DNA of 64,000 nucleotides from Lachnospiraceae bacterium (lineage in GTDB: Bacteria; Bacillota; Clostridia; Lachnospirales; Lachnospiraceae), in NCBI GenBank assembly GCA_902363825.1, contig CABJBK010000007.1, positions 62,001 to 126,000 of the forward strand, written 5' to 3'. Below are positions 9,633 to 29,111 of the stretch, one piece after another. The stretch's first letter is position 1. Every line of letters starts with the position of its first letter. The notes under the pieces are model-generated. The model was not told the origin of the DNA. It did no database searches and saw only the letters and a list, made by a program, of their open reading frames with translations. A program made the translations under genes and the position numbers.

Positions 9633-9689
9633 ATTATAAAGATTCGCCTTTTGATTGTCAACTCTTTTATTGTTTATGGTTAACTATTG
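9633..9689 (-). promoter_or_regulatory. bioY promoter with BirA-type operator
   Basis: Minus-strand -35 TTGACA (9656-9661) and -10 TATAAT (9633-9638) are separated by exactly 17 bp. The operator half sites TAGTTAACC and AGTTGACAA are separated so that GTTAAC and GTTGAC are 16 bp apart, close to the Gram-positive BirA consensus TTGTTAACC-N14/15-GGTTAACAA. The operator covers the -35 and reaches into the hutD stop codon at 9680-9682. Confidence 0.75.
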
Positions 9690-10249
9690 TTTGCTTTTGC
9701 AATTACAAGTGTACAGGATTCGAATGCATGAACCACCATCTCTCCATGCGAGGAATCCTCATACAGGAAATCCCCTTTTTTCATTTTCTGATATTTTCCA
9801 TGATAAGAAACATCCAAACTGCCTGTGACAAGATAAATGCCAAGCACATCCGTTTTCACATCAAATATTTTTTTCTCCCCTGCCGTCAGTTTCAGATATT
9901 CCAGCTGACCGTCTGCCCCTTCTTTTAACATCAGATTGAAATCCTGACAGGCTCCATGACTGACCGTCTTTTCCCCTCCCGAAAATGCGTCCTGATCACC
10001 GGGACACAGCCGGACTGTCTTTCCGCTTTCGTGACACAGTTCTACCGCGCCATCAAGCACCATAAGAATTCGTTTTGTATCGGAAAGTTTCGTAAACACA
10101 GAAGTCTCATCCCTGCACACTGCCGTGCTTAAACGAACTTTAAATCTACGCTCCCTGTAACTTCCATCCGGCGGATACAGATACAGTTCGGTTGTTGTTC
10201 CGCCAGACCATTCCGATACCTTTTGTTCTGCATTTGGAACGTATCTCAT
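9680..10249 (-). CDS. hutD: HutD family cupin protein
   Basis: 189 residues from MRYVPNAEQKVSEWSGG, preceded by GAGGAGGATTACGAT. HutD features are visible: the early SEWSGGTTTELYLYPPDGSY segment, VRLSTAVCRDETSVFTKL, and a second-barrel motif FNLMLKEGADGQ. HutD is a small bicupin linked to histidine utilisation, thought to limit pathway flux by binding a pathway intermediate such as formylglutamate. It is the last gene of the long operon that starts at the aconitase X genes, 15 bases after the ABC ATPase gene. Confidence 0.88.
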   Translation of the reverse strand: MRYVPNAEQKVSEWSGGTTTELYLYPPDGSYRERRFKVRLSTAVCRDETSVFTKLSDTKRILMVLDGAVELCHESGKTVRLCPGDQDAFSGGEKTVSHGACQDFNLMLKEGADGQLEYLKLTAGEKKIFDVKTDVLGIYLVTGSLDVSYHGKYQKMKKGDFLYEDSSHGEMVVHAFESCTLVIAKANNS

Positions 10250-10263
10250 ATCGTAATCCTCCT

Positions 10264-11097
10264 CTATTCTACCGCTGTGATCAGTTTCATACTTTCTTCC
10301 CGGATAATATCGGAGCAATGCATTTTGTATTCCATAAATTTCTGTGTGTTTTTAATATGATAGTCTCTCGGCCGCTCCAGATCAATGTCAATTACTTCAC
10401 GGACAGTTCCCGGCCTTGATGTCATAACTACTACCCGGTCTGCAAGGAAAACAGCTTCTTCAATATCATGTGTTACCATGATGATCGTCTTCGGCGATTT
10501 CTGCCATACATTTAAAAGCAGTTCCTGCATGACACCTCGCGTCTGCATATCCAGTGCGCCAAACGGCTCGTCCAACAACAGAACATCCGGATCATTCGCC
10601 AGTGCTCTCGCAATCGCGACACGCTGTTTCATACCACCGGAAAGAGATTTCGGATACTGCTTTTCAAATCCTCTGAGTCCGACAAGATCAATATAGGAAT
10701 TGACGATCTCGTTAATCTCTTCTTTTGTCTTGTTTTTTCTCTGATTCAATCCAAACGCAATATTTTTTTCCACTGTCATCCATGGAAATAAAGTATAAGA
10801 CTGAAATACCATTCCAATATCAGCACCCGGTTTTGTAATTTCTTCTTTTTTAAACATGATCTTTCCGGTTGACGGATGCTCCAGACCGCCAATCATCCGA
10901 AGCAGTGTAGACTTTCCACATCCGCTGGTTCCTAAAAGTGTAACAAATTCTTTGCTGCGCACATGAAGATTTGTTTCCGCAAGCGCCTGTACCGTTCGCT
11001 CTTTGGTCGCAAATGTTTTTGTTACACCGATGATATCCACTCCTTCATGCAATTTTATTACTTTTCCATTTGCCTCTTCGATATATTCTCTACTCAT
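10264..11097 (-). CDS. ABC transporter ATPase, TauB/SsuB type
   Basis: 277 residues. Walker A is [12 protein letters not shown] (about residues 56-67), the Q-loop lies in [13 protein letters not shown], the ABC signature is LSGGMKQRV, and Walker B is [12 protein letters not shown]. The switch His is in [10 protein letters not shown]. This is the nitrate/sulfonate/taurine importer subfamily. It pairs with the permease at 12110-12934 and the lipoprotein at 16242-17315 in the same operon, an importer whose substrate is most likely urocanate or a related imidazole compound given the surrounding hut genes. Confidence 0.92.
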
Positions 11098-11125
11098 AAT
11101 TCAGCCTCCTGTCTGTTTTCGCGAC

Positions 11126-12097
11126 TTATCCATTGACCAGATCGTCCGGTCTTTCTCCGTTAAACATCTTATACGCATTTTCTACAGTTCTGACTTTTAA
11201 TGTATGGAAAGATTCCTCTGAAATATAAGAAATATGTGGTGTCACAATAATGTCGCTGCACTTCCAGATATTTTCATCACCCTTCGGTGGCTCTACGGAT
11301 ATCACATCTACTGTCGCACCTGCAATTTCTTTCTTTTCCACCGCCTCGATCAGATCTGTCTCATTTAAGATATTTCCTCTCGCTGTATTGATCAGATATG
11401 CCGTTGGCTTCATCTCGGCAAATTCTTTTTCCCCGATAATATGATGGGTTTCCTTTGTATACTTCACATGTACGCTTACATAATCTGCCATCTGAAATCC
11501 TTCATCCCAGGAAACCGGCTCAATGCCAGCTTCTTTTAAGATTTCCGGTGGTACATGGAGATCATAACCGATTACTTTCATACCGGCACCGGCTGCATAC
11601 TTTGCAAGTGTTCTTCCGATCGTTCCGCAACCAACAATAAATAACGTAGCTGCACTCACGCGGTGTACAATGTGCGACACCGCACCGGCGCCCCATACAC
11701 CCTTTCCATCGGTAATCCGATAAGACAGGATCTTCTTATTATAATTATAAATCGCAGCCATGACGTACTCTGCCAGATCATCTGCGCAATAGCCCTGCAC
11801 ATTTGTCACCATGATTCCCTTTTCTCTGGCTGCGTCAATATCAATTCTGTCATAACCGCCACCATAAACTGCAATTCCACGACATTTTTCCAGACGATCA
11901 ATCACTTCTTTGTCAATCTTTGTATAAACCTGTGCAAGGATCAGGTCTGCCTGATATCCAAACTCTTCAAGATCTTTTTTATAGTCATACCCGGAATGAC
12001 GGATTTTTGCATCCGGAAGCAGCTTTTTTATAAGTTCCTTTTCCACTTCATAATCCGACCACTCTTCGTCAATAATCCATACCAGTAAATCATTCAT
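11126..12097 (-). CDS. D-isomer specific 2-hydroxyacid dehydrogenase (CtBP-like)
   Basis: 323 residues with an excellent GGGGGAAGATAAA site. The NAD-binding motif is IVGCGTIGRTLAKYAAG (about residues 150-170), followed by the acidic D of VIGYD that selects NAD. Catalytic residues are the Arg in LINTARGN, the Glu near SVEPPKG and the His in VTPHISY. The family reversibly reduces 2-oxoacids to D-2-hydroxyacids. Its place between the ATPase and permease genes shows it belongs to the hut/AcnX operon. The substrate is unknown; an imidazole-lactate type acid is one possibility. Confidence 0.9.
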   Translation of the reverse strand: MNDLLVWIIDEEWSDYEVEKELIKKLLPDAKIRHSGYDYKKDLEEFGYQADLILAQVYTKIDKEVIDRLEKCRGIAVYGGGYDRIDIDAAREKGIMVTNVQGYCADDLAEYVMAAIYNYNKKILSYRITDGKGVWGAGAVSHIVHRVSAATLFIVGCGTIGRTLAKYAAGAGMKVIGYDLHVPPEILKEAGIEPVSWDEGFQMADYVSVHVKYTKETHHIIGEKEFAEMKPTAYLINTARGNILNETDLIEAVEKKEIAGATVDVISVEPPKGDENIWKCSDIIVTPHISYISEESFHTLKVRTVENAYKMFNGERPDDLVNG

Positions 12098-12109
12098 TTT
12101 ATCTTCCCC

Positions 12110-12934
12110 CTATTCTTCGTTCCACGGAAACAGTACTTTGCGTAAGAACATACAAAACATATCGAGCGCAAGACCAATGATACCAATCGTAATAATTCCG
12201 ACAAATATTTTTGAGATCATAAACTGCCGTCCTGCCTGTGTGATCATAAATCCAATTCCCTTGGATGCACCGATCATCTCTGCCACAATAATATAGGTCC
12301 ATGCCCAGCCAAGCACAATACGCAGGGTATCCACAATATCCGGCAGACATTTCGGCAGGATTACCTTAAAAAACACACCAAACCTGGAAACGCCAAGCGT
12401 ATAGGATACTTCAATCAGGGAAATGCTCACATTTCTTACATTCGTCGCAACCATTAAAATGATCTGTGCAACGCTTCCTACAATAATGATCGCCACTTTC
12501 GAAGATTCTCCGATTCCGATCCATAAAATAAACAGCTGAATAAACGCGGATGCCGGAAGGTAACGGAAAAATGAGAAAAATGGTTCTAAAAATGCAGCAA
12601 ACGGTGCATAAGTTCCGATCAGCAGGCCAAGTGGAATACCGACCACTGCTGAAATTAAAAATCCAATCAATACACGCTGCACAGACATGCGGATATCCGT
12701 AAGAAATCCTCCGGTTAAAAACATGTTTTTTGCCGATTCAAAAGTTTTTGCCGGCGATGGTAAAAACATACTGTCTACATGTTTTACATAAACGGCATAC
12801 GCCCAATATAAAAAAATAAGCACAAAAGACAGCACTGCCAAAAGTGCATATGCCTTTTTTGAAATGGATGCCTTCGGTGTAAAAGCATCTTCCAGACGAA
12901 CTTTTGCGCTTTTCTTTTTTGTATCATTCGCCAT
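12110..12934 (-). CDS. ABC transporter permease, TauC/SsuC type
   Basis: 274 residues with six predicted spans. The first is AYALLAVLSFVLIFLYWAYAVYV. The BPD_transp_1 core contains GFLISAVVGIPLGLLIGTY and the EAA-type loop LIEVSYTLGVSRFGVFFKVILPKCLPD-like segment, which contacts the ATPase. The start is 2 bases after the hutI stop and its GGTGAGG site lies inside hutI, so translation is coupled. It is the membrane channel of the operon's importer. Confidence 0.92.
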   Translation of the reverse strand: MANDTKKKSAKVRLEDAFTPKASISKKAYALLAVLSFVLIFLYWAYAVYVKHVDSMFLPSPAKTFESAKNMFLTGGFLTDIRMSVQRVLIGFLISAVVGIPLGLLIGTYAPFAAFLEPFFSFFRYLPASAFIQLFILWIGIGESSKVAIIIVGSVAQIILMVATNVRNVSISLIEVSYTLGVSRFGVFFKVILPKCLPDIVDTLRIVLGWAWTYIIVAEMIGASKGIGFMITQAGRQFMISKIFVGIITIGIIGLALDMFCMFLRKVLFPWNEE

Positions 12935-12936
12935 AA

Positions 12937-14193
12937 TTACACCTCACCTTTCTGATATACAGTTTTTCCGTTCTTTATTACCTCACAGACCAGATTTTTT
13001 GCGGTATGATAAACAAGGAATTCATATTTGGGGTCGGAAAGAACTACCAGATCCGCTTTCTTTCCGACTTCAATACTGCCGATCTCCTTCTCCATGCCAA
13101 CTGCCGCTGCTCCGTTTAAGGTAAGCGCGCACAGTGCCTCTTCCAGTGTCATGCCCATGTGAATGACTGCCAGCGCAAACATGAGTGGAATCGAGTTTGT
13201 AAAGCAGCTGCCCGGATTGTAATCACTTGCCAGCGCCACCGCGCATCCGGCATCGATCATTTTTCTCGCCGGTGCATATGGTTTCTTCAGACAGAATGCG
13301 GTACACGGAAGCAATGTGGCGATTGTCTCGCTTTTTGCCATGTCACAAATGCCCTGCTCTGAAACAGCAAGCAGGTGATCCGCCGATACTGCCCCAAGCT
13401 CCGCCGCCAGTTCGGCGCTTCCCGTAGATACGATCTCATCCGCATGGATCTTTAGTCCAAAACCAACTTCTTTTGCCGCAGACAGCAGTCTTTTTGACTG
13501 TTCTCTGGTAAACACGCCTTCCTCACAGAACACATCGGTAAACTCCGCAAGGTTTTCTTTTTTTATCTCCGGCAGCATCTCCGCGATCATAAAATCCAGA
13601 TAAGAATCCGGATCCTTTTTATATTCCAGCGGAATGGAATGCGCACCGAGATATGTATTTACCACGGAAACAGGCTGTGCTCCATTTAGTTTTTTCATCA
13701 CCTGAAGCTGTCTTATCTCACAGTCATGGTCAAGTCCATAACCACTCTTTCCTTCCACCGTTGTAACTCCCATAGACAGCATATCTTTTAACCGCATCTC
13801 TCCCAGCCGGTACATTTCCCCATCATCAAGTGCCCTGGTGGCCTCTACCGTATTCTGGATGCCGCCGCCTGCCTTATGAATCTCGATATACGGAACGCCC
13901 TTCTGGCGCATCATAAATTCCTCCGGACGATAGCCGCCAAAAATAAAATGGGTATGCGAATCCACAAATCCCGGCAAAACGGTATGTCCATGCATATCCC
14001 TGACATGTTCTCCGTCCAGCTGATAAGCATTCTTCACTTCTGCCGTCGTGCCGACGAACGCGATCCGTCCATCTTCCACGACGACTGCGGCATCCATAAT
14101 CTTTTTGGATTCATTCATTGCACTGCCATGCTTCGCCGCACGGCCTTCCGGCGTGACCAGTTGTGAAATATTTATCAATATCTGTCTTTCCAT
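12937..14193 (-). CDS. hutI: Imidazolonepropionase
   Basis: 418 residues from MERQILINISQLVTPEG. This ATG is 7 bases from AGGGG, whereas the ATG two codons upstream is too close. HutI signatures are present: the metal-binding VDSHTHFIFGGYRPEEF, the substrate Arg region RQKGVPYIEIHKAGGGI, GKSGYGL, the catalytic KIHADEI, and the metal Asp in ASDYNPGS. It opens the imidazolone ring to N-formimidoyl-L-glutamate, the third step of histidine breakdown. It follows hutU by 17 bases in the operon. Confidence 0.96.
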   Translation of the reverse strand: MERQILINISQLVTPEGRAAKHGSAMNESKKIMDAAVVVEDGRIAFVGTTAEVKNAYQLDGEHVRDMHGHTVLPGFVDSHTHFIFGGYRPEEFMMRQKGVPYIEIHKAGGGIQNTVEATRALDDGEMYRLGEMRLKDMLSMGVTTVEGKSGYGLDHDCEIRQLQVMKKLNGAQPVSVVNTYLGAHSIPLEYKKDPDSYLDFMIAEMLPEIKKENLAEFTDVFCEEGVFTREQSKRLLSAAKEVGFGLKIHADEIVSTGSAELAAELGAVSADHLLAVSEQGICDMAKSETIATLLPCTAFCLKKPYAPARKMIDAGCAVALASDYNPGSCFTNSIPLMFALAVIHMGMTLEEALCALTLNGAAAVGMEKEIGSIEVGKKADLVVLSDPKYEFLVYHTAKNLVCEVIKNGKTVYQKGEV

Positions 14194-14210
14194 ATGCATT
14201 CCCCTGTTCT

Positions 14211-16220
14211 TTAATGAAAATGCGCTTTCACTGCATCTGCAACCAGATCTTCATCTGCGAGATACGGGATCGTGATCTGGCTTTCTCCTTCGTAGGTCTT
14301 GTTGTAAGAAATCGCTGTCTCCATGGAATGTTCATTTCTCGCCCAGTTTCTTCTTGCAACGCCGCCCATGACGTCCCAGAGAAGACCGCTTTTTACCACT
14401 TCATCTGCGCGTTTGCTTCCATCCAGCACCAGTCCGAATCCGCCGTTAATGGATTTTCCGATTCCGACACCGCCGCCATTGTGAAGTGCCACAAGGCTCA
14501 TGCCGCGCGCTGCATTTCCGACGTAGCACTGTACTGCCATATCTGCCATAACATTACTGCCGTCTTTGATGTTTGCTGTTTCACGGAACGGAGAATCTGT
14601 ACCGGAAACATCATGATGATCACGTCCCATCATAACCGATCCGATTTCACCGTTTCTTACCATCTCATTGAATTTCAGGGCGATCTTCACACGTCCAACG
14701 GCATCCTGATACAGGATTCTCGCCTGTGTGCCGACGACCAGCTTATTCTCCTCTGCCTCTTTGATCCAGTTGTAGTTATCGAGATCCTGATAACGTCTGT
14801 CCTTATCAATACAAGCCATTGCTGCCTGATCAGTCTTCTTTAAATCTTCCGGTTTCCCACTTAAACATACCCAGCGGAACGGTCCATAACCATAATCAAA
14901 CAGATGCGGTTCCATAATGTCTTCCACATAAGACGGATAAATAAAGCCGTCTTTATCATCCACGCCGTTCTTAGAGATTTCCTTTACACCTGCGTCATAA
15001 ATTGCCTTTAAGAAAGAATTTCCATAATCAAAGAAATAGGTACCGCGGTCTACACAGGTCTTTACGAGTTCATAATGTTTACGCAGCGACTGATCCACTA
15101 ATTTTGCATACTGATCCTGATCCTCCGCAAGCATTTTTGTTCTCTCTTCAAAGGTAAGACCCTGCGGGCAGTAGCCACCTTCGTATGCTGCATGGCAGGA
15201 GGTCTGATCAGAAAGAAGATCGATCTTTATCTCATGATCCACCGCATACTGCAAAAGATCTACGATATTTCCATAGTAGGCAATCGAGCGCGGCTGTTTC
15301 TTGTCCATATATTCTTTCGCTGTTGTAAATACCTTTTCCAGATCATCGGACCATTCCGATACCCAGCCCTGATCCAGGCGGGTCTCTATTCTTGAAAAAT
15401 CAACCTCCGCAATGATACCAACACCTCTTGCGATCTCAACTGCTTTTGGCTGTGCACCACTCATGCCTCCCAGTCCGGAACTTACAAATAAATGTCCGCT
15501 CAGATCCCCGTCATTCGGTATGCCAAGCTGCTGTCTTCCCGCATTTAATAACGTATTATAGGTTCCATGTACGATACCCTGCGGACCGATGTACATCCAG
15601 CCTCCGGCTGTCATCTGCCCGTAGTTTGCGACACCCATTTCTTCCGCGATCTCCCAGTCTTTCATATTGTCAAACATACCGACCATCAGCGCATTTGTGA
15701 TCGTAACTCTCGGGGCCTCCGGCCGGGACTTGAAAAGTCCCAGCGGATGTCCGCTCTCCACAACAAGTGTGGTATCTTCAGTCAGTTCTTCCAGGTATTT
15801 TTTGATCAGCCGGTACTGCATCCAGTTCTGACATACACTACCGGTCTCTCCATAAGTAACCAGTTCGTAGGGATACAGAGCTACTTCAAAATCCAGATTG
15901 TTATCGATCATGACCTGAAACGCTTTTCCCTCGATACATTTTCCCTTGTATTCGTCAATCGGCTTTCCATAGATACGTCCTGCCGGACGGAAACGATATC
16001 CATAAATACGTCCTTTTGTATACAGTTCATCCAGGAATTCCGGTATCAGCTGTTTATGGTACTCCGGTTTTATATAACGAAGTGCATTTTTCAAGGCTGT
16101 TTTTGTCTGTTCCTCTGTCAGATGAAATCCTCTGGACGGCGCACGCCGGATCCCCGGCTCAAATTCCGGCATTTCCGGTAATTCATCATCCAATGTAATT
16201 AACATATATTCACTGCTCAT
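14211..16220 (-). CDS. hutU: Urocanate hydratase
   Basis: About 669 residues, full length for the long clostridial type. The start at MSSEYMLITLDDELPEMP has better spacing to AAAGGA than an ATG three codons upstream. Signatures include GIRRAPSRGF, the NAD-binding SSGLGGMSGAQPKA, the catalytic-loop region DQTSCHAAYEGGYCPQGL, and MGRDHHDVSGTDSPFRET. It converts urocanate to imidazolonepropionate using tightly bound NAD+. No histidine ammonia-lyase gene occurs in this window, so urocanate must come from elsewhere or be imported. Confidence 0.96.
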   Translation of the reverse strand: MSSEYMLITLDDELPEMPEFEPGIRRAPSRGFHLTEEQTKTALKNALRYIKPEYHKQLIPEFLDELYTKGRIYGYRFRPAGRIYGKPIDEYKGKCIEGKAFQVMIDNNLDFEVALYPYELVTYGETGSVCQNWMQYRLIKKYLEELTEDTTLVVESGHPLGLFKSRPEAPRVTITNALMVGMFDNMKDWEIAEEMGVANYGQMTAGGWMYIGPQGIVHGTYNTLLNAGRQQLGIPNDGDLSGHLFVSSGLGGMSGAQPKAVEIARGVGIIAEVDFSRIETRLDQGWVSEWSDDLEKVFTTAKEYMDKKQPRSIAYYGNIVDLLQYAVDHEIKIDLLSDQTSCHAAYEGGYCPQGLTFEERTKMLAEDQDQYAKLVDQSLRKHYELVKTCVDRGTYFFDYGNSFLKAIYDAGVKEISKNGVDDKDGFIYPSYVEDIMEPHLFDYGYGPFRWVCLSGKPEDLKKTDQAAMACIDKDRRYQDLDNYNWIKEAEENKLVVGTQARILYQDAVGRVKIALKFNEMVRNGEIGSVMMGRDHHDVSGTDSPFRETANIKDGSNVMADMAVQCYVGNAARGMSLVALHNGGGVGIGKSINGGFGLVLDGSKRADEVVKSGLLWDVMGGVARRNWARNEHSMETAISYNKTYEGESQITIPYLADEDLVADAVKAHFH

Positions 16221-16241
16221 TTCATTCATATCCTTTCTGTT

Positions 16242-17315
16242 TTATTCAAGACCTGTCAGATATTCGCCATCGATCATTGCGTCAATATCCGGTTTTGCAT
16301 CGATCAGTCCCATCTCGACCCAGAGATCTCCCGCTTTGGATGCAATATCCTGGATTTCTCCGTTAAAATACTCCTCATTCCCTGCTTTGTCATAGAAAGA
16401 AACTTCTTTCATGGATTCCTGTAATGCTTCCGGTGTCTCATCTCCGGTATATTCCATCATGATCTTATAGGCATCATCCGGATTGGATTCCATATAAGCC
16501 AGCGCATCGTACCATCCACTTATGATCGCTTTTACTGTATCCGGATACTCTTTCGCAAACTCTTTGTCCATTGCCAGTGCATCTACGATAACACCCGGAG
16601 TACTTGAACTGTCTACCAGAACACTTCCGTTTTCTGCCTCTTTTGCTTTGGAAAGCCATGGCTCCCAGGTAACTGCCGCATCAACTTCTCCCGCAACAAA
16701 CGCTGCGCCGGCATCACCGGAACTCATATTTACAACCTGGACATCATCCAATGTCATCCCCTCCTGCTGAAGCAGATACTGGAACCAGAAATAAGACGCT
16801 CCACCGGAAGTATCAAGTGCTACGGTATGTCCTGCCAGAGACTTGACATCCTGAATGTCAGATTTTGCAGAAACACCGTCGCCACCATCTGAAGTATCAA
16901 GCGCTAATACAACACTTAAATCCATGCCGGAAGCCTCACTCATGACATGTGTATCAACGGTTGTTGACATACCCTGAATTTTTCCCGCTGCAAGTGCGCT
17001 CTTGGAATCTGTCTTCGATTCAAAGAATTCTACATCCACATCCGCACCATGATCATCGAAAAATCCTTTTTTGTCTGCCAGATAAAGTGGTGCGTATCCA
17101 ATCCAGGAAGCCTGACCAAGCAGTACTTTTCCATCATACATGCCAGAAGCTGCTGCCTCTGTTCCGGCTTCGCCCGGTGTTGTTTCTCCGGTATCTGCAG
17201 TTTCTTCCTTTGTATCTGTTGCTGTACTTGCCTCATTGCTGCTGTCACCACATCCGGTTACCATGGCAGCTATCATTGCCGTTGTCATTAAGGCCGCTAA
17301 AATTCTTTTTTTCAT
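16242..17315 (-). CDS. ABC importer substrate-binding lipoprotein (TauA/NrtA type)
   Basis: 357 residues from MKKRILAALMTTAMIA, after ACAGGAGGAAACAATT. The lipobox MVTGC gives a lipid-anchored mature protein, followed by a Thr/Glu-rich linker. The NMT1/THI5-like fold is indicated by GQASWIGYAPLYLADKKGFF, GKIQGMSTTVDTHVMS, and VKSLAGHTVALDTSGGASYF. The region AAVTWEPWLSKAKE is typical of the taurine/sulfonate group. It delivers the substrate to the permease and ATPase encoded further down the operon. The hut gene context suggests an imidazole carboxylate, but ligand residues cannot be read reliably. Confidence 0.9.
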   Translation of the reverse strand: MKKRILAALMTTAMIAAMVTGCGDSSNEASTATDTKEETADTGETTPGEAGTEAAASGMYDGKVLLGQASWIGYAPLYLADKKGFFDDHGADVDVEFFESKTDSKSALAAGKIQGMSTTVDTHVMSEASGMDLSVVLALDTSDGGDGVSAKSDIQDVKSLAGHTVALDTSGGASYFWFQYLLQQEGMTLDDVQVVNMSSGDAGAAFVAGEVDAAVTWEPWLSKAKEAENGSVLVDSSSTPGVIVDALAMDKEFAKEYPDTVKAIISGWYDALAYMESNPDDAYKIMMEYTGDETPEALQESMKEVSFYDKAGNEEYFNGEIQDIASKAGDLWVEMGLIDAKPDIDAMIDGEYLTGLE

Positions 17316-17389
17316 AATTGTTTCCTCCTGTCTTTTGTGACTGTTTTCCAAGTGTCTCTATAAATGAAAATCGCAAGGATTCACATTTT

Positions 17390-18715
17390 TTATCCAAGGC
17401 GCCTCATGGTTTTTCGAACCTTTTCTTTGATAAGCTCCTCATCCACCGTTTTAAGCTGCCCGTCTAAAATCGTCGTTTTTCCCTGTACGATCACGGTCTT
17501 TACCGCCTGCGGTTCCATCGAATAAACAATGTTTGGAAGTACCTGTTCCAGATTTTCACTGACTGGCATCATAGAAAGATCATTCAGATCGATACCGGTA
17601 AAATCTGCCTCCAAACCTTCCTCGATCTTTCCTGCCGTAAAGCCCAGAAGATCCGCTCCGTTTGCAGTTCCCATCTCAAATGCCTGCATATAGTTCACAC
17701 AAAGTGCATCACAGGTATTCGCCTTCTGAAGCAGGGATACCATCCGCATCTCCTCAAAAACGCTGATCCGGTTATTGCTGCATGCCCCGTCACTGCCAAG
17801 CGCGATCCTGACACCGGATTTCATCATAAGTGGAATGTCTGTAATACCGTCTGCCAGAAACATATTGCTGGACGGGCAATAGACCAATCCACCGCCCTTT
17901 GCCCCAAGCGTTTTAATCTCTTCCGGTTTTAACCAGACGCCGTGAATGATGACCATCGTGTCATCCACGACTCCGATCTTATCAAGGTATTCAAGCGGTG
18001 TCAGACCGTCATGCTCCTTTTTGACCTGCTCAACCTCAAAAGGCTCCTCCGCCACATGCATATGGAATTTCGTACCGAGTTCTTTTGCCAGTTCATGACC
18101 GGCCAAAACCATATCCGTTGATGCTGCATGCAGACTGTGTGGTGCCGGGATCACATTTACCATCGGATCCGCTTTGTATTTATTTGCCAGAGTTTTTGTA
18201 TTTTCCACAGCTTTTGGAATAGTCTCCACATAACCCGCCGGAGCTCCGTCCCAGTCATACATCGTCCGGACCAATCCAAGCCGCATACCCAGATCTTTCG
18301 CAGCCTGAATAATGGCTTCATCACTGTCCGTTCCATAATTATGTAAATAGAAGAAATCACCTACACAGGTCACTCCCCGCTTCATCATTTCGCCAAACGC
18401 GAACAATGCTCCCGTGTAAATGTCTTCCAACGTCATAAGCGGGGAATAGTGATACAGGGAACGGTCTCTCCACTCGAGAAACGGCCGGTCTGCTGCAATT
18501 CCACGAAGGAGGCTCTGGAAGCAGTGGTTATGTGCGTTGACAGTTCCAGGTACCAGCACCTGATGTGGAAGTTCCAAGATTTCGGCTCCTTCTGCCTCTT
18601 TTTTTAACTCAGAAGCAGGACCAATCCTTCTGATCTTTGTTCCATCTACGGTTACCGCATATTCTTTTTTGAATTCTCCGCCTGTATATAATAATTCAGG
18701 AATTATTATTTTCAT
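17390..18715 (-). CDS. Amidohydrolase/deaminase, HutF/SAH-deaminase-like
   Basis: 441 residues of the COG0402 amidohydrolase barrel. The first metal motif is VNAHNHCFQSLLRG; then come PHSLHAAS, the HMHVAEEPFEVE motif, the HG of MVIIHGVWLKPEE, and the metal Asp in LGSDGACSNNRISVFEEM. The PHSL...HVAEE..EVE combination resembles formimidoylglutamate deiminase (HutF), while SDGACSNN resembles the SAH/triazine deaminase branch. In this operon, deimination of formimidoylglutamate to formylglutamate is the economical guess. Its ATG touches the preceding stop (TAGATG), so it is translationally coupled. Confidence 0.85.
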   Translation of the reverse strand: MKIIIPELLYTGGEFKKEYAVTVDGTKIRRIGPASELKKEAEGAEILELPHQVLVPGTVNAHNHCFQSLLRGIAADRPFLEWRDRSLYHYSPLMTLEDIYTGALFAFGEMMKRGVTCVGDFFYLHNYGTDSDEAIIQAAKDLGMRLGLVRTMYDWDGAPAGYVETIPKAVENTKTLANKYKADPMVNVIPAPHSLHAASTDMVLAGHELAKELGTKFHMHVAEEPFEVEQVKKEHDGLTPLEYLDKIGVVDDTMVIIHGVWLKPEEIKTLGAKGGGLVYCPSSNMFLADGITDIPLMMKSGVRIALGSDGACSNNRISVFEEMRMVSLLQKANTCDALCVNYMQAFEMGTANGADLLGFTAGKIEEGLEADFTGIDLNDLSMMPVSENLEQVLPNIVYSMEPQAVKTVIVQGKTTILDGQLKTVDEELIKEKVRKTMRRLG

Positions 18716-19969
18716 CTAATCCAGCTCCTTATCCAGTTTTAATAATGCATAAAATAATGCATCCGCCGCTTTTTTGATATCCTCGGGTTTCGAATACTCC
18801 TGTCTGCAGTGTCCTTTTCCACCGACACTCTGAACAAATATCATCCCGGCTTTTGTGATCAGCTCCATATTGGAAGCATCATGTCCAGCCATACTGACCA
18901 TCTGTTTTTTCGGTTCTCCGATATCTTCAATTCCGGCATTTATCGCCGCAATCACATCCTTATCCATTTTTCTGCACGGCTGATTTAATATTTCCTTACG
19001 TTTTACAATAACCTGGCGTTTTTTCTCTATCTTTTCAACCGCCTCTGTGATCTTTTCTAAGATCTGATCCTGGATATTTCTTTCACATGTCCTGATATCA
19101 ATGATAGCCTTCGCCTGCCCGGGAATAATACTCGCCTCATTCGGTATGATCTTTACATATCCCATAGTTGCCACTACATCCGGATTTTCAAATTCGATTG
19201 CTGCCTCTTCAATCTCAAGCGCAATCTCACTGAGTGCAAGCAATGCATCCTTTCGATCCTGCATCATTGTTGTCCCTGCGTGATTTGCTTCGCCAAGCAC
19301 TGTGATCTCTTCCCGGTAAATGCCGGTGATACAGCTCACAGATCCAACCGAAAGATCTTCTGCCTCTAAATGTCTGCCAAGCTCATTGTGCGGTTCTAAG
19401 AATGCCGCGATCGTTCCTTTTTCAATTCTTGCCTCATCCAGACGTTCAAAATCCCCGCCCAGCTTTGCAATCGCATCCTTTAAGCTCTCGCCGGTCTCTC
19501 TGTTTTTGCAGTTCACAAGATCTTCCTTCTTTAATCTTCCGCTGATCACCTTACTGCCCAGTGTTGAAAGGTTAAACGGATTCGGTTCCTCTCCTGTAAA
19601 GGATATGATCCAGACCGGATGCCTGAGAGAAATATTATCTTCCACAATACGCTGCATGATCTCAGTTGCGATCAGTACTCCCATTGCGCCGTCATATTTT
19701 CCTCCATCCGGTACGGCATCATGATGAGAACCGAGCACGATCGGCAGCAAAGGCTCACTGCCTTCCCGCTTCACCCACATATTGGCAATCGGATCCACAA
19801 CCGGATGAATCTTAAAATTTCTTTCCCAATAAGAAAGCAGCCACTGTCTGGTCTCGTAATCTGCCCGGCTTCCCAGCGCCCGGTCGATTCCACCCTGTTC
19901 GTTCATTCCTATTTTTGCCATTTCAAAGAGGTTTGTCATCAGTCTGTCAATGTTGATTTCCATACCCAT
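18716..19969 (-). CDS. M20 family amidase (carbamoylase/allantoate amidohydrolase-like)
   Basis: 417 residues. Zinc-site motifs are VLGSHHDAVPDGGKYDGAMG (His and Asp ligands, residues ~75-95) and SFTGEEPNPF (catalytic and metal Glu). The lid domain carries GEANHAGTTMMQDRKDAL, and the last zinc His lies in SMAGHDASNM or GKGHCRQEYS. The family cleaves N-carbamoyl amino acids, ureidoglycolate-type compounds or allantoate. Between a HutF-like deaminase and AcnX, and with no HutG in the window, it could hydrolyse N-formyl- or N-carbamoyl-glutamate. That assignment is inference. Confidence 0.87.
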   Translation of the reverse strand: MGMEINIDRLMTNLFEMAKIGMNEQGGIDRALGSRADYETRQWLLSYWERNFKIHPVVDPIANMWVKREGSEPLLPIVLGSHHDAVPDGGKYDGAMGVLIATEIMQRIVEDNISLRHPVWIISFTGEEPNPFNLSTLGSKVISGRLKKEDLVNCKNRETGESLKDAIAKLGGDFERLDEARIEKGTIAAFLEPHNELGRHLEAEDLSVGSVSCITGIYREEITVLGEANHAGTTMMQDRKDALLALSEIALEIEEAAIEFENPDVVATMGYVKIIPNEASIIPGQAKAIIDIRTCERNIQDQILEKITEAVEKIEKKRQVIVKRKEILNQPCRKMDKDVIAAINAGIEDIGEPKKQMVSMAGHDASNMELITKAGMIFVQSVGGKGHCRQEYSKPEDIKKAADALFYALLKLDKELD

Positions 19970-20034
19970 TTTCTCACCTCGCTCAATATTGGAATTATTC
20001 TATTCTTTTAATGTTGATTTTTTCCGCCTTTGCT

Positions 20035-20439
20035 TTATAAGATCTCGATTGTTCCGGCATCTGCATCGATCCGGATGCGGTCACCGCTTTTTATCGTCTC
20101 ATAAAATTCCTTATCCACTTTGTCCACCATTGGAATATCCATAATGATGGCACTGGATACCAGCACCGTTTCCGGATACTGGATAATCATTGCCTTTGGA
20201 AGATTTCCTTCCTTATTTAACTGGAACAGACCGTCCGCCTGTACCACACTGCTTCCTTTTCCTCCAGGAAAGATCAAAATCTTTCCCGCCATGGACTGTC
20301 CTTCCAACGCATGCGCCGGTTCGATCACAACACCGGTCTTTGGATCGATCAGATAAAACATGATCTCATCGGAGGATAGCAAAGCCTCTCCTTCTGCCAC
20401 TCCTTCTGAAATCTTATGACATGAAAACTTCTTTCCCAT
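20035..20439 (-). CDS. Aconitase X swivel domain (small subunit, DUF126)
   Basis: 134 residues. The family motif FPGGKGSSVVQADGLFQL lies near the middle, with the Ser-rich loop expected to hold substrate. DPKTGVVIEP and the C-terminal SGDRIRIDADAGTIEIL complete the swivelling beta-barrel. It starts 1 base after the large-subunit stop. AcnX proteins are Fe-S hydro-lyases; known members dehydrate cis-3-hydroxy-L-proline (bacteria) or mevalonate 5-phosphate (archaea). The substrate in this operon is unknown. Confidence 0.92.
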   Translation of the reverse strand: MGKKFSCHKISEGVAEGEALLSSDEIMFYLIDPKTGVVIEPAHALEGQSMAGKILIFPGGKGSSVVQADGLFQLNKEGNLPKAMIIQYPETVLVSSAIIMDIPMVDKVDKEFYETIKSGDRIRIDADAGTIEIL

Positions 20440-20440
20440 A

Positions 20441-21646
20441 TTATTTTACCTCCCCACATAATGCTGCATCGATGCAGGTGTCAAGATCACGGATTACAAA
20501 TTCGATTCCACGGCGCTTCGGGTAATAAGCACATTTCGGAGATTCCGTTACGCCGATCTTGCCTTTCAGGCCATGCCAGCAAGGCTGATCCGGACAGGTA
20601 TCCGGAACAATAAATGCGCCCGCTTTCTCGATTTTTTCTGTAATATCCATCCGGTCTGCAAGTTCTTTTACATGATAGGAAGTTAAGATCCACATCGGAA
20701 CTGCCAGCTTCTTTCCGTCGATACGTTCTGCAATATGCATCGCCTGATCCAGCGTGAAATGCGGACATCCGAACATTGCAAAATCAATCTTACGATTTCC
20801 CGGATTGGAAATTTCCTCTAAAATTTCCTGTAAATCATCATTTGTGATCACCACTTTGCGCTCCGGCTCTTTGCCTCCAAAAGCTGCCTCAACAGTAGGT
20901 GCTTCCGGCGTAAAACCTGCGATATGATACATGCCATACGCCCCCGATGTATTAAGCTGCGCTCCGAGATTGGTTAAAGCCTCCTTTCCGATATGTTTCG
21001 GAAGTCCGGTAAACACCGGTATACCCGGTCCGATCTTCTTTCCGCAGTAACCCAAAAGATGATATTCAAAATCAGATTTCATATCTGCCTGAACTTCCAC
21101 CAGAACATTTCCTTTCCGGTTTTCATCCAGCAAAAGTCCGTATTCTGGTACATATCCGGTAATCGCGGCACATAAAGCACTGTTTGCGCCCTCTCTGTTG
21201 CTTCTTGCTCCCCAGACCGAATTGATATACGGAGTAGCGCTGGATTCGGAGAAAGCGCAGATCTCACCGAAGTTCGGCACATTCGTTGCAACATATGGCG
21301 TACAGTTATAGGTAAGCGTTGCTCCAAGTCCTTTGTATGCATTGTGCGTCCGCTGCATCATTTCCGTGTCTTCATCTGAAACCATGTTATGCTGCTTGAA
21401 AAAGGAAATGCAAAATCCCGGATTTACGGTAGGTGATACTCTGCAGTGTGCTCCCGCATGCAGCAATTTTTCCGCAAACCAGAGATCTGCATCCTGATTG
21501 CTCAATGCAACGTGAGCTCTTGTGATCGGAACCATACGTGGTGCGTCAAAAGACTCTCCGATCGCAACCTGGATCTTCATTGCATACGCGGTTCCTTCCC
21601 CATACTTTCCATTCAGCATGTCTTTCTGTTCTTCTGTCAGTTCCAT
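20441..21646 (-). CDS. Aconitase X catalytic subunit (DUF521)
   Basis: 401 residues from MELTEEQKDMLNG, preceded by GAGGAGATGATTTC; the longer in-frame extension runs through a terminator stem. AcnX motifs are RMVPITRAHVALSNQDADLW, TYNCTPYV, the SESSATPYINSVWGARSNRE segment, FGCPHFTLDQ, and the C-terminal PDTCPDQPCWHG with candidate Fe-S cysteines. It forms a two-subunit enzyme with the adjacent swivel protein. It is the first gene of the operon behind a strong promoter and a leader terminator. A dehydratase leading a hut operon is unusual. Confidence 0.92.
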   Translation of the reverse strand: MELTEEQKDMLNGKYGEGTAYAMKIQVAIGESFDAPRMVPITRAHVALSNQDADLWFAEKLLHAGAHCRVSPTVNPGFCISFFKQHNMVSDEDTEMMQRTHNAYKGLGATLTYNCTPYVATNVPNFGEICAFSESSATPYINSVWGARSNREGANSALCAAITGYVPEYGLLLDENRKGNVLVEVQADMKSDFEYHLLGYCGKKIGPGIPVFTGLPKHIGKEALTNLGAQLNTSGAYGMYHIAGFTPEAPTVEAAFGGKEPERKVVITNDDLQEILEEISNPGNRKIDFAMFGCPHFTLDQAMHIAERIDGKKLAVPMWILTSYHVKELADRMDITEKIEKAGAFIVPDTCPDQPCWHGLKGKIGVTESPKCAYYPKRRGIEFVIRDLDTCIDAALCGEVK

Positions 21647-21662
21647 GAAATCATCTCCTCTG

Positions 21663-21711
21663 AAAATAAAAAACAGCGCTCCGACCATAACTGGTCTCTT
21701 TGAGCGCCGTT
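21663..21711 (-). terminator. Leader terminator/attenuator candidate before acnX genes
   Basis: On the minus strand AACGGCGCTC pairs GAGCGCTGTT over 10 bp. There is an asymmetric internal loop (AAAGA against G), then GACC/GGUC closed by AGTTAT, and finally TTTTTTATTTTC. The structure lies between the promoter at 21748-21776 and the acnX ribosome binding site. It can therefore end rpiR readthrough or attenuate the operon. Confidence 0.8.
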
Positions 21712-21747
21712 GCCTTTTGTTTCCTGTTTATTTTTGCTGTTGTATGT

Positions 21748-21776
21748 ATGATACTATCATTATTTGATTGTGTCAA
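21748..21776 (-). promoter_or_regulatory. Promoter of the acnX-hut operon
   Basis: Minus-strand -35 TTGACA (21771-21776), 17 bp, -10 TATCAT (21748-21753). The -10 lies inside the 13-bp perfect palindrome ATGATAGTATCAT (21748-21760), a possible operator. The predicted transcript has a leader of about 90 bases containing the terminator-like hairpin. Confidence 0.8.
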
Positions 21777-21792
21777 GAATATTTTTATTATT

Positions 21793-22659
21793 TTAAGAAA
21801 AATAAATTTTCTGCTGATTATCGATCTGCTCGATCTTTGCCAGACGTTCCTCCATTTCCGGAAGCTGTTTTGAAACATCCGTGATCAAAAGATTGATAAA
21901 CGCCATCGGTGTACTGTAAAGATCAAAAACAGATGCGACTGTCGTTGGTATAAAAACCTTCGTATCCGCATACTTACACAACGGTGAAAAACGACTGTCT
22001 GTGATAACGTCTATCTTATACCCGTCTTTTCGTAATTCTTTTACTTTTTCGACCAGGACTCTCGGATAGCGCGGAAGTCCCATCGCAATCACCCGTACCC
22101 GCTCTTTTTTATATTTTACCTGAAAATAATCCCAGTCGTTGCCATCCGGTGTTACCAGTCGCACATTGTCCCGCAGTTTGTCCAACGTATAGCGCATATA
22201 AGGCAGCAGGGTAGCTGACATACGGGCAGAAAGCAAAACGATCTCTTCTGCATTTACAATCGTGTCTACCAGCTTATGATAATCCGCTCCCGCTGTAATC
22301 TCCTTTAACGTACGAAGGTTTTCAATCTCACGCTCGATCACATCATCTGTATGGTGCGTGCTCACGGAAGTATAGTGATAGCGTTCCGGTGCGGTAATTT
22401 CTTTTCCGACAAATTTCTGTAAATTGCGCAGGAAATCCGCATATCCACGATAGCCCAGTGCAATACAGAATTTTGATACACTGCCCTGACTGACGGAAAG
22501 CTGCAAAGCCAGTTCACCTGCTGTCATAAAAATAATCTGCATATAATACTGTTCAATATATGCGGCAATCTTTTTGTAGACGGTGGAATCCGCGGATACT
22601 ACCAGCATGCGGTTCACCAGTCCTTCCATGTCTTTAATCTCTGTCACTTTTTTTGTCAA
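21793..22659 (-). CDS. RpiR/MurR family transcriptional regulator
   Basis: 288 residues starting at a TTG codon 3 bases after AGGAGGGATTG. The N-terminal HTH_6 domain contains FMTAGELALQLSVSQGSVSKFC and ALGYRGYADFLRNL. The C-terminal ~150 residues form a SIS-type ligand domain (EIVLLSARMSATLLPYMRYTL, RVIAMGLPRYPRVLVEKV, IDVITDSRFSPLCKYAD). RpiR regulators usually sense phosphosugars or acids of the pathway they control. It lies between the divergent ThDP enzyme gene and the acnX-hut operon, and is the natural regulator of both. Confidence 0.92.
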   Translation of the reverse strand: MTKKVTEIKDMEGLVNRMLVVSADSTVYKKIAAYIEQYYMQIIFMTAGELALQLSVSQGSVSKFCIALGYRGYADFLRNLQKFVGKEITAPERYHYTSVSTHHTDDVIEREIENLRTLKEITAGADYHKLVDTIVNAEEIVLLSARMSATLLPYMRYTLDKLRDNVRLVTPDGNDWDYFQVKYKKERVRVIAMGLPRYPRVLVEKVKELRKDGYKIDVITDSRFSPLCKYADTKVFIPTTVASVFDLYSTPMAFINLLITDVSKQLPEMEERLAKIEQIDNQQKIYFS

Positions 22660-22706
22660 ACAATCCCTCCTACTTTATTTATGCTGCCCTTTATCGCTTT
22701 ATCTGA

Positions 22707-22821
22707 GAATGAAATCATTCCTTATATGCTAAATATTACTTGTTCTATAAAACGCTGTCAATAAATAATTTCATTTTTATTCAAAAAAAATATTGACATC
22801 ATTCCTGTTTTGCTCTACTAT
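22707..22821 (+). promoter_or_regulatory. Divergent rpiR/ThDP-enzyme control region
   Basis: The plus-strand promoter is TTGACA (22793-22798), 17 bp, TACTAT (22816-22821), and serves the ThDP enzyme gene. The perfect inverted repeat GAATGA-AA-TCATTC lies at 22707-22720, and TCATTC recurs at 22800-22805 between the -35 and -10. These TGAAT/ATTCA-type repeats are candidate RpiR operators. Confidence 0.6.
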
Positions 22822-22872
22822 GTGGTGGAAAAATATTACAATTCATTTTTTACAATAGAAGAAGGGGTCATT

Positions 22873-24543
22873 ATGAGTCAAAAAAAAGAAACTTCTCTGT
22901 CCGCAGCAGAAGTATTAGTAAAATGTCTGGAGAACGAAGGCGTTCAATATATCTTTGGTATTCCCGGAGAGGAAAACCTGGATGTAATGAACGCCTTAAA
23001 ATTTTCAACGATCAAATTTATCACTGTACGCCATGAGCAGGGGGCAGCCTTTATGGCAGACGTATATGGAAGACTGACCGGAAAAGCCGGTGTCTGCCTT
23101 TCCACTTTAGGTCCGGGCGCAACCAACCTGATCACCGGTGTTGCAGATGCCAACAGTGATGGTGCCCCACTCGTTGCTATCACTGGTCAGGTCGGCACCG
23201 AGCGCATGCATCTTACCTCGCATCAGTTTCTTGAACTGGTCAAGCTGTTTGAGCCGATCACCAAGCGAAGCAAGCAGATTGTCCGCCCGGATACGGTAAA
23301 TGAGATTGTCCGTATTGCATTTAAGTATGCGGAAAACGAAAAACCTGGCGCTGCGCTGATCGATCTGCCAACCGATATTGCAAAACTGCCAGTCGAGGGG
23401 CTGCCTGCACAGACACCTTTAAAGCGCAAGCTTCCAAACCGTGAATTTGCATCCATTGACAGAATTGAAGCAGCCGCGAAACTGATCAACGAGGCAAAAA
23501 TGCCGGTAATTTTAGTTGGACATTCTGCAGTACGCGACAAAGCCAGCCGTGCTCTCACTGTTTTGGCAGAGCAGCTTCGTATTCCTGTCATTAATACTAT
23601 GATGGCCAAAGGCATGATTCCGTATACCAGCAAATACGCTATGTGGACCGTTGGTATTCCTCAAAAAGATTATACCAATAAGGTTTTAGAGGATGCCGAT
23701 CTTGTCATTGCAATCGGATATGATATTGTAGAGTACGCTCCCGGAAAATGGAATGCCAACGGCAGCAAAAAAATTCTGCACATCGATCAACGGCCTGCAC
23801 ACATTAATAAGCTTTACCAGCCGGAAACGGAGGTGATTGGTGATATTTCCGATTCTCTGATCCAGCTTCTCAGACTCTGTGAACCAAAGGCAGAACCTGT
23901 CTGCGCGCTTTCAATCAAAGCGGAAATGGAAAAAGAATTTGAAAGTTATGAAAGTGACAACGCATTCCCTCCCAAACCTCAGAAAATCCTCAGTGATATC
24001 CGCAAAGTTATGGGAAAAGATGATATTTTGATTTCAGATGTAGGAGCCCATAAGATGTGGATTGCCAGACATTACAACTGCTATAAGCCCAATACCTGCA
24101 TCATATCAAACGGTTTCGCTACTATGGGAATTGCGGTTCCCGGATCTATTGCTGCCAAACTGGTCCATCCGGATAAAAAAATCCTTGCCGTCACCGGTGA
24201 CGGAGGGTTTATGATGAATTGCCAGGAACTGGAAACGGCATGCCGCATTGGTACTCCGATTGTAATTTTGATTTTTAATGACTCAAGCTATGGTCTGATC
24301 AAATGGAAACAGGAGGATCGCTTTGGCAGCCATTGCTTTGTAGATTTTACAAACCCGGATTTTGTAAAATTTGCGGAAAGTATGCATGCAAAAGGTTACC
24401 GTATCGAGAAAACAGAAGACTTTATTCCAACATTAAAAGATGCATTCAAGCAGAATGTTCCCTGCATTATAGACTGTCCGATCGACTATCGTGAAAACAC
24501 CAAGCTGACGCAGCATCTTCAGGAAATTTACGAAGAAATTTAA
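22873..24543 (+). CDS. ThDP-dependent acetolactate-synthase-like enzyme
   Basis: 556 residues from MSQKKETSLSAAEVLVK after GAAGAAGGGG; longer in-frame extensions run into the promoter. The N-terminal ThDP domain has the activating Glu in VRHEQGAAFMADVYGRLTGK. The central domain binds FAD or its remnant, and the C-terminal ThDP/Mg motif runs VTGDGGFMMNCQELETAC to FNDSSYG. It resembles the stand-alone large-subunit branch of acetolactate synthases (TLGPGATNLITGVADAN). No small subunit is nearby. Divergence from rpiR suggests it handles a 2-oxoacid from the neighbouring pathway rather than branched-chain synthesis. Confidence 0.88.
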   Translation: MSQKKETSLSAAEVLVKCLENEGVQYIFGIPGEENLDVMNALKFSTIKFITVRHEQGAAFMADVYGRLTGKAGVCLSTLGPGATNLITGVADANSDGAPLVAITGQVGTERMHLTSHQFLELVKLFEPITKRSKQIVRPDTVNEIVRIAFKYAENEKPGAALIDLPTDIAKLPVEGLPAQTPLKRKLPNREFASIDRIEAAAKLINEAKMPVILVGHSAVRDKASRALTVLAEQLRIPVINTMMAKGMIPYTSKYAMWTVGIPQKDYTNKVLEDADLVIAIGYDIVEYAPGKWNANGSKKILHIDQRPAHINKLYQPETEVIGDISDSLIQLLRLCEPKAEPVCALSIKAEMEKEFESYESDNAFPPKPQKILSDIRKVMGKDDILISDVGAHKMWIARHYNCYKPNTCIISNGFATMGIAVPGSIAAKLVHPDKKILAVTGDGGFMMNCQELETACRIGTPIVILIFNDSSYGLIKWKQEDRFGSHCFVDFTNPDFVKFAESMHAKGYRIEKTEDFIPTLKDAFKQNVPCIIDCPIDYRENTKLTQHLQEIYEEI

Positions 24544-29078: not shown

Positions 29079-29111
29079 GATTTTCCTCTTTCTCTTTTTA
29101 TTTTCCCCGGC

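Follow-up and report, generated by a model that had tools for sequence, protein, structure and literature searches.

The hut pathway of histidine-type catabolism runs through HutH, HutU and HutI, and is completed by HutG, by HutF plus HutG, or by FtcD. Aconitase X (AcnX) has been described in other settings. According to a 2021 structural study of the family, both described AcnX reactions abstract the C2 proton and eliminate a β-hydroxyl group, and Types IIc to IIf, in which the landmark residues of the known enzymes are all missing, are still uncharacterised (PMC8184944); the substrate of the characterised bacterial enzyme is cis-3-hydroxyproline (PMC5144071). Here, an operon drawing on both systems is described from a 64,000-nucleotide stretch of the contig CABJBK010000007.1 of a Lachnospiraceae gut bacterium (hereafter the window, meaning this whole stretch). 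With the hut pathway it shares HutU, HutI and HutD, covering the steps from urocanate to N-formimino-glutamate, but it has no hutH, hutG or ftcD; AcnX is proposed as its source of urocanate, and an amidohydrolase that falls outside the HutF models is proposed, together with an M20 amidase, for the last two steps. With the known AcnX enzymes it shares the fold family, the catalytic set (Cys ligands, Glu, Ser, Lys and Tyr) and the two subunits of Type-II, but it has Tyr, Val and a gap at Trp35, Thr72 and Asp203, lacks the phosphate loop of the mevalonate enzyme, and occurs in urocanase-linked genomes. Ergothioneine degradation (Ert) has in common an ErtE-related M20 protein and a urocanase-family hydratase, but the operon differs by its hutI and reaches no Ert cut-off, so that an ergothioneine operon is not supported. 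We put at roughly even probability the reading that the operon encodes, complete in itself, the uptake and breakdown of an imidazole 2-hydroxyacid. The likeliest candidate is imidazole lactate, which would pass via AcnX to urocanate and then to glutamate.

Every gene listed by the initial annotation, a model's reading of the bare sequence, was found by profile matches, and those of the operon lie in a minus-strand run from rpiR (22659) to hutD (9680). None of them is fused, although an island fused with an AcnX module had been announced. From high to low coordinates the order is rpiR, acnX large, acnX small, M20, amidohydrolase, substrate-binding protein, hutU, hutI, permease, D-2-hydroxyacid dehydrogenase, ATPase and hutD. 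The genes from acnX to hutD are:

20441..21646, minus strand: AcnX large subunit (PF04412 450.6 bits; 7cnr_A E 4.6e-66), proposed catalytic subunit of an imidazole-lactate dehydratase
20035..20439, minus strand: small subunit of AcnX, a swivel domain that carries the catalytic Ser63 (PF01989 96 bits; 2hi6_A E 2.5e-29; 7cnr_B E 2e-27)
18716..19969, minus strand: M20 amidase of the hydantoinase/carbamoylase family (TIGR01879 299.1, cut-off 204), proposed N-formyl-L-glutamate deformylase
17390..18715, minus strand: deaminase-type amidohydrolase (PF01979 210.9 bits), proposed N-formimino-L-glutamate deiminase in a HutF-like role
16242..17351, minus strand: substrate-binding protein of an ABC importer, SsuA/TauA type (TIGR01728 177.9, cut-off 163.5)
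14211..16229, minus strand: HutU urocanate hydratase, long type, 672 amino acids (TIGR01228 455.9 bits, cut-off 375)
12937..14199, minus strand: HutI imidazolonepropionase (TIGR01224 447 bits, cut-off 298.15)
12110..12934, minus strand: ABC importer permease, TauC type (PF00528 85.9 bits)
11126..12097, minus strand: D-2-hydroxyacid dehydrogenase (PF02826 168.6 and PF00389 77.9 bits), proposed to interconvert imidazole pyruvate and imidazole lactate
10264..11097, minus strand: ABC importer ATPase (PF00005 121.8 bits)
9680..10318, minus strand: HutD, cupin-type Hut accessory protein (PF05962 83.6 bits, cut-off 25)

A single transcript from acnX to hutD is plausible, because the intergenic distances, taken from open reading frame coordinates, range from a 55-base overlap to 65 bases. 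The reading frame of the AcnX large subunit opens at 21688; its likelier start is the ATG at 21646, which is preceded by the ribosome-binding site GAGGAG. No HutH, HutG or FtcD was found among the operon proteins scanned, and the HutH-like and FtcD sequences from neighbourhoods in relatives gave no blastp match among the window's reading frames. The M20 protein is a sub-threshold relative of ErtE, an N-carbamoyl-L-glutamate hydrolase (NF058540 341.5, cut-off 520). What had been called a HutF-like amidohydrolase is indeed a deaminase-type amidohydrolase, but it falls below both curated HutF cut-offs (TIGR02022 190.7 against 413.05; NF006681 233.4 against 362); among solved structures it comes closest to amidohydrolases of the MTA/SAH and TRZ/ATZ types, and HutF 3mdu ranks last among 15.

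In the proposed route, the Tau-type importer would take up imidazole lactate, and the two-subunit iron-sulphur AcnX would dehydrate it to urocanate. Because AcnX would supply the urocanate, histidine ammonia-lyase would be dispensable. HutU would convert urocanate into imidazolone propionate, and HutI would convert this into N-formimino-L-glutamate. The amidohydrolase would then perform the HutF step to N-formyl-L-glutamate, from which the M20 amidase would free formate and glutamate; we infer these two roles from gene context, not from family membership, since these are the operon genes left after HutU and HutI. The D-2-hydroxyacid dehydrogenase may link the other enantiomer, or imidazole pyruvate, to the route; the same connection would be made in relatives by LarA racemases, by a dehydrogenase of the L-lactate type or by a HisC-like aminotransferase. 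In the active site, the open iron would be chelated through the hydroxyl and carboxylate of the substrate, in the way that malate and isocitrate bind it in related Fe-S dehydratases, and the imidazole ring would serve as electron sink. Imidazole lactate is formed by fermenters. It is favoured among the substrates suggested by the initial annotation because LarA-type racemases and 2-hydroxyacid dehydrogenases adjoin AcnX in many relatives. No match in the operon that exceeds its curated cut-off speaks for the hydantoin or thio derivatives suggested beside it.

AcnX of the window type is tied to urocanate metabolism by statistical linkage to urocanase. One pattern-based scan of genome contigs gave 70 acnX loci, one of them partial, whose best segments are 54-87% identical; counted by record title they are spread over 66 genomes, with L024, L057, L060 and L068 lying in the same genomes as L003, L021, L015 and L058, respectively. 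Urocanase, searched with PF01175 in 50 of these genomes and with PF17391 in the other 16, is present in 63 of the 66 (47/50 and 15/16, plus a contig-end fragment in G048 that the first search missed). In Lachnospiraceae at large it was found in 15 of 299 genomes, and in 11 of the 295 that lack window-type AcnX. Among the 21 Lachnospiraceae with AcnX matches, all four with at least 60% identity have urocanase, against none of the 17 with only a 31-38% AcnX. In Oscillospiraceae, where 13 of 200 genomes have urocanase over the cut-off, the corresponding counts are 2/2 with window-type AcnX against 2/37 with only other AcnX. When the two families are pooled, urocanase accompanies the window subfamily in 6/6 genomes and other AcnX alone in 2/54 (Fisher p 5.6e-7; like the other co-occurrence p values, this is a guide only, related genomes not being independent). 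In Synergistota, 91 of 149 genomes have urocanase: 34 of the 35 with an AcnX of at least 43% identity (the miss is G567) against 57 of the 114 outside those 35 (p 4.6e-8), and five of seven with only a more distant AcnX. The controls throughout were AcnX-negative genomes and genomes with other AcnX.

The neighbourhoods of acnX, counted over 69 loci with an anchored gene, point to a hydroxyacid. LarA homologues (PF09861, both LarA clusters) occur in 39 loci, on the acnX strand in 38 and no more than 3 kb away in 29; GntR regulators occur in 33, TRAP genes in 30, and the D-2-hydroxyacid dehydrogenase cluster in 18. At least one of LarA, a 2-hydroxyacid dehydrogenase and a HisC-like aminotransferase is found in 49 loci. 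LarA enzymes are nickel-pincer racemases, and larA2 from the relatives' loci keeps the residues that align by eye to LarA R75, H108, H174, K184 and H200. The accessible parts of two LarA surveys (among PMC11770544, PMC12611868 and PMC7583248) make no mention of imidazole lactate, aconitase or urocanate. Hut genes, counting HutH-like lyases, lie in 18 of the 69 loci, as in the orders ftcD-hutU-hutI-dctPQM-acnX-larA (L062), dehydrogenase-acnX-larA-ftcD-hutI (L059) and hutH-GntR-acnX-hutU-dehydrogenase-hutI (L065). The HutH-like neighbours fall on both sides of the HutH equivalog cut-off of 539.15: L065 (661.2) and L069 (649.4) exceed it, and L011 (516.3), L020 (512.2) and L024 (486.2) stay under it. 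In a quickly built tree with 77 AcnX rows, 20 of whose 74 inner branches are unsupported, hut linkage (hutU, hutI, ftcD or fchA at the locus) switches at least nine times. The window clusters there with L001, L004 and L005, all of them hut-linked; the tree neighbours L003 and L002 have acnX and LarA, with no hut gene at the locus.

Some loci are of other kinds. L017, L020 and L024 hold clusters of RidA, acnX, an Ldh_2 dehydrogenase and a HutH-like lyase, to which L017 and L020 add an iron hydrogenase and a diaphorase-like protein. MttB-family methyltransferases accompany acnX in L053, L054 and L056, and also in L006 and L024. A betaine-type OpuAC importer and hutU lie with acnX in L053-L056, where hercynine or another histidine betaine may be broken down.

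The AcnX group of the window counts 1853 homologues at E<=1e-100, and a large subunit identical to that of the window appears in the protein collection under the label Roseburia sp. CAG:182. The window's large subunit matches the fused cis-3-hydroxyproline dehydratase with E values of 1.1e-39 to 2.5e-38. The architecture is that of Type-II, with a large subunit (domains 1-3) and a small subunit (swivel) encoded by adjacent genes and matching chains A and B of 7cnr, an archaeal Type-II enzyme. When the residues of PMC8184944 were mapped by hand through these alignments, the catalytic set was found to be kept: the cluster cysteines C129, C308 and C365, with E148, S149/S150, N89, K385 and Y389, in the large subunit, and S63 in the small one. 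Among the large subunits compared, 61 of them close and 15 more distant (rows shorter than 350 amino acids were excluded, and the 43-50% AcnX of Synergistota was counted for co-occurrence), these residues are invariant, except that S149 is Thr in two close rows and one distant row; one distant row ends before C365 and so has a gap at the last three residues of the set. The small-subunit S63 is invariant in 75 rows (48 + 27). The substrate landmarks of the hydroxyproline enzyme are replaced (Trp35 by Tyr29, Thr72 by Val65, Asp203 by a gap), and the phosphate-binding loop of the mevalonate enzyme, Gly48-Val49-Ser50, falls in a three-residue gap against 7cnr_A. Near-invariant residues peculiar to the window's AcnX group are candidates for its pocket: H59, S63, Q65, D367 and W371 of the large subunit, and Y29, Q67 and D69 of the small one. 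A hydroxyproline role was rejected as the principal reading on the lost landmarks, a score of 218.7 against 700 with NF051439, and the urocanase linkage; a role as mevalonate 5-phosphate dehydratase (Type-IIb) was rejected on the lost phosphate loop.

The initial annotation had staked its reading beforehand on conservation of the gene set as a unit, and on this point the reading stands. The combination of acnX, amidohydrolase, M20 and hut genes recurs, rearranged, at four relatives' loci, L001, L004, L005 and L081, where the amidohydrolases are 66-73% identical to that of the window. L081 reads M20-amidohydrolase-acnX-hutU, the L001 locus is without hutU, and the M20 of L004 is just 32% alike. 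HutH-family lyases were searched in 52 AcnX-positive genomes, FtcD in 19 such genomes and five controls, and FGase in 12. In the four genomes with the window-type gene set, a grouping defined after seeing the data, the PF00221 lyase is absent from three, against one of 48 other AcnX-positive genomes (p 7e-4), and FtcD (PF02971) is absent from all four, against one of the 20 other genomes searched (p 5e-4). Altogether, PF00221 lyases are absent from four of the 52 (G004, G005, G044 and G219), each of them urocanase-positive. The FGase deformylase PF05013 was found in none of the 12 genomes searched for it. Lyase paralogues can be numerous, with 14 PF00221 matches in G015 (the genome of L015) and 11 in G024 (that of L026). 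The core of the initial annotation, a variant pathway that would feed an imported imidazole acid into hut at urocanate, is largely borne out; support comes from the urocanase co-occurrence, from the repeated hut linkage on the AcnX tree, and from the lack of HutH in most, and of FtcD in all, of these four relatives.

A non-exhaustive search turned up, in 12 of the 66 genomes, a sister clade of AcnX (44-59% identity), at L025, L033, L035, L041, L057, L060, L061, L062, L065, L066, L068 and L069. A divergent second urocanase, with urocanase types read by eye from match bits and lengths, is present in all 12 of these genomes against 7 of the 54 others (p 1e-8), and in L061, L062, L065 and L069 it lies within one locus with the sister AcnX. 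Four of the divergent urocanases reach 634.6-653.4 against the S-methyl-thiourocanate hydratase model, whose cut-off is 880, and 612.7-628.2 against hutU, whose cut-off is 375; they are closest to the former model but stay under its cut-off. A parallel route that handles a modified imidazole lactate would agree with this, as a guess. The wider proposal, which we rate just short of even, is that the large, unassigned clade of two-subunit AcnX acts as imidazole-lactate dehydratase, and that the sister clade with its divergent urocanase does likewise for modified imidazole lactate. This would be a third chemistry for AcnX, with an α-hydroxyl as the leaving group, and would give anaerobic bacteria an ammonia-lyase-free entry to urocanate.

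Several observations weigh against an imidazole-lactate route. The hydroxyl of imidazole lactate is on the α carbon, whereas it is on the β carbon in both described AcnX reactions, and this departure is the weakest step of the proposal. The window operon is itself without LarA, as blastp of the relatives' LarA sequences against the window's reading frames gave no match. Three of the 66 AcnX-positive genomes (G037, G047 and G555) have no detected urocanase. A HutH-family lyase is carried by 48 of the 52 AcnX-positive genomes searched, and its absence from four of 49 urocanase- and AcnX-positive genomes, against none of 22 urocanase-positive controls without window-type AcnX, falls short of significance (p 0.22). 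One 409.6-bit lyase is present in G001, a genome with the window-type gene set, where it lies beside hutU on a contig other than that of the acnX locus. The relatives are mostly metagenome assemblies whose completeness is not reported. Finally, RidA (six loci), Ldh_2-family dehydrogenases (three) and MttB methyltransferases (five) near acnX fit other imino- and amino-acid chemistries too.

The first alternative, unlikely in our estimate, keeps the known chemistry and feeds a β-hydroxy substrate into the hut route: AcnX would turn 3-hydroxy-3-(imidazolyl)propanoate into urocanate, or a β-hydroxyhistidine-like amino acid through an enamine into imidazole pyruvate. RidA acts on enamines and imines, and the six loci with RidA and three with an Ldh_2-family dehydrogenase speak for it. 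So does the loss of a β-hydroxyl after C2 proton abstraction in both characterised enzymes, as given in PMC8184944; the LarA genes in 39/69 loci and the D-2-hydroxyacid dehydrogenases in 18/69, however, indicate an α-hydroxyacid. We also know of no plentiful natural source of these β-hydroxy substrates.

In an equally doubtful reading, the substrate of AcnX is a hydroxy acid that has nothing to do with hut (hydroxyproline, 2-hydroxyglutarate or another), and acnX and hut genes occur together as shared marks of amino-acid fermenters. Many loci combine acnX with TRAP, LarA and GntR and have no hut gene nearby, urocanase is common in Synergistota regardless (91/149), and cis-3-hydroxyproline is the substrate of the characterised bacterial enzyme (PMC5144071). 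A lifestyle mark fits poorly, however, with urocanase in 6/6 genomes of the window subfamily against 2/54 with only other AcnX, with the recurrent hut linkage across the AcnX tree, and with the absence of the hydroxyproline landmark residues.

Slightly less probable again is the reverse reaction, in which urocanate would be hydrated to imidazole lactate and a dehydrogenase or racemase would dispose of the product, so that histidine fermentation would gain a side branch for overflow or redox purposes. Hydro-lyases are reversible, and the lyase found in 48 of 52 AcnX-positive genomes would make urocanate obtainable from histidine. The operon, however, combines a binding-protein-dependent importer with all the steps that lead from urocanate to glutamate, and G004, G005, G044 and G219 have urocanase and AcnX without a HutH-family lyase. 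Least probable, and decidedly so, is an operon for the breakdown of a modified imidazole, be it of the N-methyl, thio or hydantoin type, with M20 as N-carbamoyl-glutamate hydrolase as in ergothioneine degradation: M20 does score with the ErtE model and HutU matches thiourocanate hydratase models, as any urocanase does, but these scores stay under the curated cut-offs (341.5 against 520; 341 against 880; 301.7 against 930), whereas the TIGR01228 hutU and TIGR01224 hutI matches exceed theirs, and the divergent urocanase nearer to the S-methyl-thiourocanate model goes with a different AcnX clade.

For the window operon itself, the upstream side has the following features:

21672..21711, minus strand: leader hairpin followed by a T run (folding energy -24.6 kcal/mol; z -3.65 against 200 shuffles)
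21793..22659, minus strand: RpiR-family regulator, HTH_6 plus SIS (PF01418 36.0 and PF01380 32.9 bits)
22810..24543, plus strand: divergent thiamine diphosphate (ThDP) enzyme of the acetolactate-synthase type (NF006187 820.7 bits, cut-off 509)

RpiR is probably the regulator of the operon. A promoter-like site, TTGACA-17-TATCAT (11/12 match, 21776-21748), lies between rpiR and acnX together with the T-run hairpin, and the two suggest a transcription start and attenuation at this point, with the hairpin as a possible attenuator; over the whole region, promoter- and terminator-like sites are no more frequent than in shuffles. T-run hairpins, read by eye, precede acnX in L001 and L005 too, and rpiR is divergent in L005. 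An Rfam scan of the window gave one tRNA only and no known RNA element in the acnX leader. The operon may end at hutD, because a promoter-like site with a 12/12 match lies past it, ahead of bioY. The ThDP enzyme, which had been named together with the operon, adjoins acnX only in L001 of the 70 loci and is not retained as a pathway member. Elsewhere in the window, a quinolinate phosphoribosyltransferase adjoins an FAD_binding_2 protein (28224-30413), perhaps as an NAD-synthesis gene pair.

In the open-licence literature, no paper was found that joins aconitase X with urocanate, or imidazole lactate with urocanate and dehydratase, although subscription papers may exist. Likewise, none joined ergothioneine, thiourocanate and hydratase, and nothing on-topic, judged by title or abstract opening, came up for DUF521 with histidine, imidazolelactic with urocanic acid, gut clostridial imidazole lactate, or methylhistidine with urocanase. 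The new claim is a testable function for an AcnX group that lacks an assignment, linked to urocanate metabolism. If true, it would add an ammonia-lyase-free entry into histidine-type catabolism, suggest a substrate for two groups of LarA homologues, and offer an account of what becomes of imidazole lactate in anaerobic communities and in those of the gut.

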